A program made the translations under genes and the position numbers. The notes under the pieces are model-generated. The model ran no database searches. It had not been told where the DNA came from and saw only the letters and a list, made by a program, of their open reading frames with translations. From positions 1,937-37,931 of the forward strand of contig PKTI01000049.1 of the NCBI GenBank assembly GCA_002869235.1: a stretch of 35,995 nucleotides of DNA. Reading direction: 5' to 3'. Origin of the DNA: Candidatus Parcubacteria bacterium. GTDB taxonomy: Bacteria > Patescibacteriota > Patescibacteriia > UBA1558 > GWA2-36-10. How positions within the stretch are numbered: the first letter of the stretch is position 1; every line of letters begins with the position of its first letter. Positions 1,709-20,769 of the stretch are shown here, piece by piece.

Positions 1709-1936
1709 TCACGAGGTGATCTTGGGTGCCAAAGGCAGCTTGTCCCAGTTGAGCAGGCGGGACAGTTTCTCCATGGTCATCTCGATACGAGCAATGGGAT
1801 ATTTGCTTGTCTGGTTGGTGTCGATCGGAATGGGGGTACTGGACTTGATGGTCATGTGACCATCGCTGAGAATCATGAAAACAGCCGCCAGGCAAATCAG
1901 CCAGGCCATCAGGTCAGCCAGATCTTGTCGTGTCAT
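1709..1936 (-). CDS. Small membrane-anchored orphan protein, 75 aa
   Basis: Family not recognised. Residues about 6-23 (LADLMAWLICLAAVFMIL) form one hydrophobic segment, probably a signal anchor or single transmembrane helix. The remaining 50 residues are polar with a short Thr/Pro-rich stretch (SSTPIPIDTNQTSKYP). ATG 1936 is preceded by AAGGAGG (1945-1951, spacer 8 nt), a canonical SD that native genes here lack. It has its own promoter (1986-2014) and terminator (1682-1703). Codon choice is GC-rich, with many CTG, ATC, ACC and CCC codons, unlike the flanking asnS and RND genes. It sits just downstream of the RND pump, so a role with that pump is possible, but independent transcription argues for a separate unit. 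Confidence 0.65.
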   Translation of the reverse strand: MTRQDLADLMAWLICLAAVFMILSDGHMTIKSSTPIPIDTNQTSKYPIARIEMTMEKLSRLLNWDKLPLAPKITS

Positions 1937-18964: not shown

Positions 18965-19282
18965 TTATGCTGTTATTTTGTCGATCTTGATTTCAGCCAA
19001 TTGCTGACGGTGTCCGTATTGAACTGAGTATCTAGTTTTATTCTTGTACTTCAAAACATCGACTTTCTTATCCTTAAAATTTTTGAGCAAAGTAGCTTCT
19101 ACTTTGGCATTAGCCACATATGGCTTACCAACAGTTACATTGTCTTTGTCATCAATTATCAACAATACCTTATCAAAAACCACCTTCTTACCTTCTTCGG
19201 CTTTGGGCAATTTTTCTACCTTCAAGGTATCACCTTGAGCTACTTGATATTGTTTTCCACCAGTTTTTATTACTGCTTTCAT
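18965..19282 (-). CDS. rplU: 50S ribosomal protein L21
   Basis: 105-aa ribosomal protein that binds 23S rRNA. The start MKAVIKTGGKQYQVAQGD at 19282 is the conserved L21 N-terminus; a frame extending to 19318 would run into the promoter region. The C-terminal part RYSVQYGHRQQLAEIKID matches the conserved basic L21 motif (GHRQ). Usually rplU is followed by rpmA (L27); here it is alone, ending at the convergent terminator. Promoter TTGACA-17-TAAAAT at 19309-19337; short leader without SD. Confidence 0.96.
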   Translation of the reverse strand: MKAVIKTGGKQYQVAQGDTLKVEKLPKAEEGKKVVFDKVLLIIDDKDNVTVGKPYVANAKVEATLLKNFKDKKVDVLKYKNKTRYSVQYGHRQQLAEIKIDKITA

Positions 19283-19308
19283 AATTTTACTTAATTTAAA
19301 ACAATATG

Positions 19309-19337
19309 ATTTTAACAAAAAACAAACAAAGTGTCAA
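19309..19337 (-). promoter_or_regulatory. Promoter of rplU
   Basis: Minus strand: TTGACA (19332-19337), 17 nt, TAAAAT (19309-19314). Confidence 0.8.
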
Positions 19338-19376: not shown

Positions 19377-19405
19377 TTGACAAATATAGATATATATGAT
19401 ATAGT
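19377..19405 (+). promoter_or_regulatory. Strong extended -10 promoter of the GC-rich gene
   Basis: TTGACA (19377-19382), 17 nt, TATAGT (19400-19405), with TG at 19397-19398 making an extended -10. Predicted transcript start near 19412. Confidence 0.85.
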
Positions 19406-19410
19406 ATGAA

Positions 19411-19552
19411 GTCCCCTAAACACCCTGATAAACATACTATTTGGGGATTTAACCCGTGTTCTTTTACTCTTTCAAGGAGGCTAATCCTTTTTCCACGCTC
19501 TCAAATCACCAGTTGATGTTTCCTTCCCTTCAGACCAAATGGAGGTCCAGCC
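19411..19552 (+). promoter_or_regulatory. Structured 140-nt leader of the GC-rich gene
   Basis: The predicted mRNA begins with a hairpin: TCCCCTAAA (19412-19420) can pair with TTTGGGGA (19440-19447). A full but orphan SD, AAGGAGG (19474-19480), has no start codon within reach, and AAGGA can pair with TCCTT just downstream. The SD used, GGAGG (19541-19545), is 7 nt before ATG 19553. Confidence 0.5.
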
Positions 19553-20215
19553 ATGGATCGCAATCCGCAGAGCTATCGTCAGGACGAGATGAAGGTCATC
19601 TTCGGAGTGTTCAACTTCGAGGGACAGCAGGGGCCCGAGGCCTTCCTCGGCAAGGCCATCAACGGCCTGCCCGGCATGTCCATCCGTCCCGCCAACGACT
19701 CCCCCATCAACATCGACTTCGGCTACCAGGCCGTCAGCATGGCTATCCGGCCGGAGTGGACCCGCATCTACGCGCGGGCCATCACCGACATGGCCTACAT
19801 CAAGGCCGTCATCACCGCTCTCCAGCGGCAGCAGGAGATGATCCAGCAGGAGAAGGCCGATCCGGTCCCGGCGATGATGAACGCCGCCAGGATCCTGCCG
19901 ATCCTGGACTTCCGGTGGAACATCAAGGGCGGCCACATGACCGTCAACGCCAACTGGGGCGCCGGTCTGCGCGACAGCCAGGGTCACCTGAGCAACGGCA
20001 TGCCGGTCTTCGCCCACAAGGACGACCCCGTCAAGACGGCGGGCTTCCACCTGGTCGAGATCGACATCGCGCCCAGCATGGGCTACCTGTTCGCGAGGCC
20101 CTGCCGCAACCAGCGCCTGCTGAGCGTGGCCATCGACAACCTGAGCGACCAGCTCGGACGCGTCGTCCAGGCCGGACTGGAGCAGCCCTCCAACGACCAG
20201 GCCGCCGAGGCCTGA
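19553..20215 (+). CDS. GC-rich orphan protein, 220 aa, probably acquired
   Basis: I do not recognise this family. Composition is the striking feature: most third positions are G or C (codons such as GAC, GTC, ATC, GGC, CTG, GCC), while every flanking gene is AT-rich. Because of that bias other frames and the reverse strand are also open, but this frame has the ATG, a well-placed SD (GGAGG, spacer 7 nt) and a protein-like composition. No signal peptide or TM helix. It starts MDRNPQSYRQDEMKVIFGVF, has a helical mid-part ending in QRQQEMIQQEKADP (about 90-104), then beta-like stretches (LDFRWNIKGGHMTVNANW), and no Cys until residue 183 or so. Complete unit: promoter, leader, gene, terminator. 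A cytosolic protein of foreign origin is the most I can infer. Confidence 0.75.
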   Translation: MDRNPQSYRQDEMKVIFGVFNFEGQQGPEAFLGKAINGLPGMSIRPANDSPINIDFGYQAVSMAIRPEWTRIYARAITDMAYIKAVITALQRQQEMIQQEKADPVPAMMNAARILPILDFRWNIKGGHMTVNANWGAGLRDSQGHLSNGMPVFAHKDDPVKTAGFHLVEIDIAPSMGYLFARPCRNQRLLSVAIDNLSDQLGRVVQAGLEQPSNDQAAEA

Positions 20216-20233
20216 CCCTCCTTGAACCACTGA

Positions 20234-20287
20234 CTATCCTTTTTGGATAGCACCACCCCCGGACCACCAGGCCCGGGGGATTTTTTT
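20234..20287 (+). terminator. Double hairpin terminator of the GC-rich gene
   Basis: First hairpin CTATCC-ttttt-GGATAG (20234-20250), then CCCCCGG (20256-20262) with CCGGGGG (20273-20279) followed by A and seven T. Confidence 0.88.
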
Positions 20288-20327: not shown

Positions 20328-20402
20328 TGGTGACCCTACGGGGAATCGAACCCCGGTTACCAGGATGAGAACCTGGTGTCCTAACCACTAGACGATAGGG
20401 CC
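20328..20402 (-). tRNA. tRNA-Glu (CTC), CCA encoded
   Basis: 75 nt on minus: acceptor GGCCCTA/TAGGGTC (one G-T pair), D-arm GTC/GAC, anticodon stem CCAGG/CCTGG with loop TTCTCAT (anticodon CTC), T-arm CGGGG-TTCGATT-CCCCG, discriminator A, CCA. Its first 23 nt are repeated about 280 bp upstream, beyond the GIY-YIG gene. Confidence 0.96.
20380..20402 (-). repeat. Direct repeat copy 1 (5' 23 nt of tRNA-Glu)
   Basis: Plus strand CCTAACCA (20380-20387) plus CTAGACGATAGGGCC (20388-20402), inside the intact tRNA. The same 23 nt occur as copy 2 at 20662-20722, split by a palindrome. Similarity continues past it: ATGAT beside TTGAT. Confidence 0.9.
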
Positions 20403-20642
20403 ATGATTAAATAAATATTTTAATTTTTTTCTACCAACACAAGATTTCCAATATTTTTCTCTTATTCTGGCTTCTCTTATATTATCAATATTTTCTATAA
20501 TAAAACATCTAAATTTACCAAAATATTTTGTTGATTTAACGTGCTGATCTTTATGCTTTTTAATTCTTTCCCTTATATCATTTGTAAAACCAATATAAGT
20601 CTTATCCCCTGTTTCGGAAATAAGTAAATAAATACTATCCAT
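20388..20642 (-). CDS. GIY-YIG nuclease, ending inside tRNA-Glu
   Basis: 84-aa single-domain GIY-YIG (URI-type) nuclease. It has SIYLL and TYIGFT as the GIY and YIG strands (about residues 3-7 and 14-19), an Arg/His helix NDIRERIKKH with the catalytic-type Arg, and the Glu-bearing helix NIREARIREKYWKS. ATG 20642 gives the normal family start; a longer frame to 20696 would run into a palindrome. The last four codons (GPIV) and the TAG stop lie within the first 15 nt of mature tRNA-Glu, so RNase P processing would strip the stop codon from the mRNA. The gene is bounded by direct repeats of the tRNA 5' end, suggesting a small mobile element. There is no evidence for an intron. Confidence 0.85.
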   Translation of the reverse strand: MDSIYLLISETGDKTYIGFTNDIRERIKKHKDQHVKSTKYFGKFRCFIIENIDNIREARIREKYWKSCVGRKKLKYLFNHGPIV

Positions 20643-20661
20643 AATCACTTTTCTTCTTTTA

Positions 20662-20722
20662 CCTAACCACCCGCCTCGACTCGCGAAGCTTGTCAACGCG
20701 AGGCGGGCTAGACGATAGGGCC
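20662..20722 (-). repeat. Direct repeat copy 2 (split tRNA-Glu 5' fragment)
   Basis: CCTAACCA (20662-20669), a 38-bp palindrome, then CTAGACGATAGGGCC (20708-20722). The two blocks rejoin to exactly the 23 nt of copy 1. As a tRNA it is only a 5' fragment covering the acceptor strand and part of the D-arm. Confidence 0.88.
20670..20707. repeat. 38-bp palindromic insertion in the tRNA-Glu fragment
   Basis: CCCGCCTCG (20670-20678) pairs perfectly with CGAGGCGGG (20699-20707) around a 20-nt core; an alternative register pairs CTCGCG with CGCGAG. It is far more GC-rich than its surroundings and interrupts copy 2 without visible target duplication, as a repeated palindromic element would. Confidence 0.75.
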
Positions 20723-20769
20723 TTGATAAACGTATATATTTCTACCAAATTTTTGGCTCTTTGTCTAGC

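Follow-up and report, generated by a model that had tools for sequence, protein, structure and literature searches.

A GC-rich gene between rplU and tRNA-Glu in a Parcubacteria-type genome as a probable native member of a separate expression class

Why should a gene with overwhelmingly G- or C-ending codons lie between rplU and a tRNA-Glu gene in the AT-rich genome of a Candidatus Parcubacteria bacterium? We addressed this question in a stretch of 35,995 nucleotides of contig PKTI01000049.1, hereafter the window. The GC content at third codon positions (GC3) of this 220-codon gene is 93.6%, compared with 20.6-38.0% in the window's 30 other genes, rplU, rplL and rplJ among them, and its codon adaptation index to its neighbours is 0.297, every other window gene scoring at least 0.605. 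These values bear out the strong third-position bias that had been noted at this site. The bias is not common to ribosomal protein genes, since rplU, rplL and rplJ have a GC3 of ~32%, and such an atypical composition is what is expected of a recently acquired foreign gene.

All the parts described in the original prediction, namely an extended -10 promoter, a leader, a Shine-Dalgarno (SD) sequence, the 220-codon gene and a double-hairpin terminator, were confirmed at 19377-20287 (Table 1). The promoter is almost unchanged in both sister species of the genus. The terminator, which likewise consists of two hairpins in the two sister species, has an energy z of -4.74, and 0 of 200 shuffles were equally stable. 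The 5' hairpin has counterparts of different sequence in the sister species; given its fold z (Table 1) it is not significant by itself, and it was dropped as a strong feature (the class of genes described below averages -0.85, versus -0.30 for core genes). The anti-SD CCTCC was found at the 16S 3' end of one sister species, G001, and in Rfam tRNA alone was matched above threshold.

Table 1. Features of the unit, of its surroundings and of a second unit in the window (window positions)
Feature	Position	Strand	Details
rplU	18965..19318	-	conserved divergent neighbour
sigma70-type promoter	19377..19405	+	TTGACA 19377-19382, 17-nt spacer, extended -10 TGA-TATAGT 19397-19405
5' hairpin	19409..19450	+	CCCC...GGGG, near expected transcription start; weak, fold z -0.46
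Leader box GTTCTTT-N9-AAGGAGG	19458..19480	+	72 nt upstream of start codon
Leader box halves	GTTCTTT 19458-19464; AAGGAGG 19474-19480	+	
Shine-Dalgarno GGAGG	19541..19545	+	adjoins start codon
220-codon gene	19553..20215	+	ATG 19553, stop 20215; GC3 93.6%; two tandem beta5-alpha repeats
Double-hairpin intrinsic terminator	20234..20287	+	hairpins 20234-20279, T-run 20281-20287
tRNA-Glu(CTC)	20328..20402	-	conserved neighbour
GIY-YIG ORF	20388..20730		within ~320-bp insertion
Second GC3-rich, SD-led unit of the class	1709..1936	-	75 aa, GC3 71%, no Pfam family

The encoded protein, which had not been recognised from its sequence, matched no known family in the profile and structure searches performed here: sequence searches of Pfam, NCBIfam, PHROGs and the PDB gave no match. 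Its N- and C-terminal halves match one another in a profile comparison (E 3e-16), indicating two repeats, and the AlphaFold2 model (mean pLDDT 84, pTM 0.81) contains two beta5-alpha units; the protein is predicted to be cytosolic. Foldseek and VIA searches with this model gave no confident fold, which does not prove that the protein lacks a family; the best Foldseek match in the PDB was Pur-alpha (3k44; E 0.03, probability 0.54), and there were further weak S1/IF1/OB matches with Z up to 4.2. The model thus resembles PUR/Whirly-type and OB/S1-type nucleic-acid-binding domains in its tandem beta-rich repeats, but differs from them in that TM-scores are ~0.24-0.34, no E value falls below 0.001, Z stays below 5 and the likeness lacks sequence support. 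That the protein might bind nucleic acids is a guess.

We then compared the locus across related genomes. Both sister species carry GC-rich orthologues (48-50% identical, GC3 80-96%) in the shared gene order recR, rplU, gene, tRNA-Glu(CTC), murF, and in three further genera of the family distant relatives with a GC3 of 54-79% lie beside rplU or beside tRNA-Glu/murF. Across the six species the GC3 of the gene is 93.6, 79.9, 96.4, 54.4, 63.8 and 78.8%, with neighbours at 22-44%. The divergence of the gene ranks as it does for rplU and recR, but is faster, rplU being 75-83% identical where the gene is 48-50%. Among 380 genomes of the taxonomic class, the 6 with matches belong to the same family, and ~360 other genomes of that taxonomic class held no relative. 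When genome contigs were scanned, the sister species were the sole matches; the phages and plasmids searched contained no relative, a single-protein viral scan gave no match, and no relatives were found away from the rplU/tRNA-Glu/murF neighbourhood.

Judging from these comparisons, the 220-codon gene is inherited at its site in related bacteria and not recently imported. The original prediction had proposed recent acquisition from a high-GC donor, for which the composition of the gene speaks and nothing else. This proposal is contradicted by the syntenic, GC-rich orthologues at ~50% identity in both sister species, by the relatives in three further genera and by the failure to find a donor among the genomes, phages and plasmids searched; other native genes of the genome moreover have the same GC3, and we consider such a transfer highly improbable. 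Unusual codon selection, offered at the same time, fits better than recent acquisition, the selection itself being something that we infer. A few other GC3-rich genes may be true imports, for example one in L069, which we take to be a probable IS110-type transposase.

The unit is also not the isolated oddity that it had appeared to be, as the window contains a second, smaller GC3-rich unit (Table 1) and the genome contains dozens. In 310 kb of the source genome, comprising the window and ~274 kb of stretches partly chosen for hits, GC3 is bimodal, with a core at 20-40%, a second group at 60-96% and few genes between. This second group, hereafter the class, is a separate GC3 mode of ~5% of genes, mostly stand-alone units; with the hit-chosen contigs left out it accounts for 9 of 186 genes, which would amount to ~40 per genome. 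GC3 is bimodal in G001 too, where the class comprises 19 of 334 genes, and in another genus, represented by a single 1.04-Mb contig, 17 of 335 genes belong to it at a GC3 of at least 55. A third genus has a graded version, GC3 in G012 showing a tail and not a clean second mode, and the two genomes sampled from other families of the order (GC3 near 15%) have no such class. Runs of 21 successive G or C third positions occur in 17 of 21 family genomes, and are commonest in the source genome. Within that genome, a dense cluster of ~10 class genes on contig C33 (L077, 5698-15444) includes a PepT-like peptidase and a receiver-like protein; in G001, class genes adjoin tRNA-Gln(TTG). A literature search on such a gene class in CPR returned nothing relevant. 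Although the assembly that holds the window is in 59 contigs, which would allow for foreign sequence introduced by assembly or binning, several assemblies have contigs on which core genes flank the units, among them the single contig of 1,035,212 bases, and contamination is hardly credible.

Class genes combine TTGACAAA promoters close to the consensus with a strong SD and GC-ending codons, and often have GTTC in the leader; the rest of the genome has AT-ending codons and mostly SD-less genes. With a home-made gene caller that rewards an SD when choosing starts, a strong SD precedes 56-79% of class genes versus 4-5% of core genes, an enrichment that reaches significance in each of the four deeply sampled family genomes (Fisher p 6e-10, 4e-14, 4e-11 and 4e-3). 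Promoters starting with TTGACAAA were found for 14 of 16 class genes versus 3 of 50 core genes, and the motif GTTC[ACT][CT]T in 8 of 16 class leaders, where 0.7 were expected, and in 0 of 50 core leaders. GTTCTTT followed by AAGGAGG gave 36 hits in 21 family genomes, 13 of them in one genome (G011), compared with 6 for the reversed GTTCTTT, and GTTCTTT ranks top of 42 permutations. Furthermore, the median upstream gap is 212 in the class versus 72 in the core, and 8% of class genes versus 41% of core genes are members of operons. The GTTCTTT in the leader of the unit resembles the core of boxA, known from boxA/Nus antitermination leaders, but differs in that the family's GTTCTTT usually has an SD directly after it; antitermination of this kind was rejected, as the 16S leader of G001 lacks a GTTCTTT element.

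Regarding gene content, candidate exported proteins, as called by a simple hydrophobicity rule, make up 30% of the class versus 11% (p 2.5e-5). The class proteins tested mostly have no family, the exceptions being a PepT-like peptidase, a receiver-like domain, an HD domain and a propeller domain. One conserved, secreted, beta-rich class protein (L065 4125-4961, minus strand; L101 27-857; L015 2708-3547) has a barrel-like look, which would be unexpected if the cell is single-membraned; its structure prediction has a pLDDT of 31. Two genes that we take to be CsrA-like (L068 2-145, minus strand; L029 near 1500) have leaders with the class type of strong SD, and a regulatory link between them and the class is possible.

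All testable orthologues in G001 keep their class, namely 97 of 97 core pairs and 4 of 4 class pairs, the latter 32-57% identical; class membership is inherited between species, with four class orthologue pairs being testable. Codon identity at conserved residues exceeds that of independent draws in the two classes (0.66 vs 0.55 and 0.54 vs 0.44) and in the 220-codon gene (0.76 vs 0.54). Synonymous saturation is therefore incomplete, and provides no argument for inheritance.

What, then, maintains the GC-ending codons? The rise in GC is confined to the transcription unit, from 38% at -240 to 60% in the gene. In the class, whose mean GC3 is ~80%, fourfold sites reach 80% GC and leaders 46%, a difference that speaks for selection acting on the coding mRNA. 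GC1, GC2 and leader GC are raised as well (57, 40 and 46% in the class versus 46, 32 and 26% in the core), so that composition may be shifted more widely, over the entire transcription unit. Such a shift could take the form of a mutational or gene-conversion bias limited to transcription units, raising GC in the absence of selection. We regard such a bias as rather improbable, however, since it would have to leave leaders at 46% where fourfold sites attain 80%, and ribosomal protein genes, which are presumably highly expressed, are unaffected (GC3 ~32%). We infer that selection on the coding mRNA is the cause. The sampled stretches encode tRNAs with G34 or C34 for several class codons. The idea of isoacceptor charging under starvation does not explain the C-ending choice where one tRNA reads the amino acid.

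The surroundings of the unit had also been considered a plausible integration hotspot. Here an insertion of ~320 bp carrying a GIY-YIG ORF, which has three distant paralogues in the source genome, has on either side a 23-nt direct repeat (91%) of the end of tRNA-Glu. The sister species have no such insertion at this place, so that it is an event separate from the 220-codon unit; the tRNA repeat bounds the insert and not the unit, and no integrase was recognised among the window ORFs. A hotspot is still conceivable, since in G017, of another genus, the rplU/tRNA/murF interval is occupied by another class gene (lipoprotein-like, GC3 85; L120 11012-11437, minus strand) with a promoter, TTGACAAAAAAG...GCTATAAT, of the same form as in the class. 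It is therefore plausible that class genes replace one another at fixed sites, and this constitutes the main rival: a family-internal pool of GC-rich cassettes would circulate between relatives and land at conserved sites such as rplU/tRNA-Glu/murF, and the pool, and not the chromosome, would set their composition. In line with this, reciprocal best hits in the part of G001 that was sampled exist for 4 of 30 sampled class genes versus 97 of 253 core genes, and class genes cluster densely on C33. The 220-codon gene is nevertheless syntenic in three species with a divergence ranked like that of its neighbours, no copy was found outside the family or in the phages and plasmids searched, and neither a mobility gene nor an att site was found tied to the units; we consider a circulating pool unlikely, if well short of negligible.

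Taken together, the 220-codon unit is probably a native, vertically kept gene of a separate expression class in this Parcubacteria-type family. As far as sequence features tell, the class is best read as a second, native mode of expression that serves fast-evolving accessory proteins, with likely exported proteins over-represented; this suggests that a further, distinct programme of gene expression is maintained in these tiny, AT-rich bacteria. More tentatively, one genome might speak two inherited expression dialects, a mostly SD-less core with AT-ending codons and a stand-alone, SD-led minority with GC-ending codons that is switched together. Under the reading as a native class, RNA polymerase would produce a short, discrete mRNA from the strong promoter, 30S subunits would be recruited via SD pairing and not via an unstructured AT-rich start, and selection on the coding mRNA would maintain the GC-ending codons, through decoding by GNN/CNN anticodons or through mRNA stability. 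SD recruitment together with GC-ending codons would make the class translatable apart from the core, and its content would fit a condition- or partner-facing programme.

Should the class prove real in expression too, screens for horizontal transfer that rely on composition would take native genes of these genomes for imports, and it could be tested whether start-site type and codon choice are coupled, which would be unexpected. The class further points to a limited number of genes that are probably accessory and in many cases exported, in bacteria about whose dealings with other microbes little is known. Bacterial genes are commonly divided by codon usage into background, high-expression and alien classes, and here too a minority of genes is sharply different in codon use. 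The class differs from the high-expression category in that ribosomal protein genes lack its bias, and from the alien category in that the 220-codon gene is inherited at its site. SD-led and SD-less genes occur side by side in prokaryotic genomes, in varying proportions, as described in two published studies (PMC5397173, PMC10783764). What sets this class apart from the known codon classes is that its codon style goes together with the type of promoter, leader and SD.
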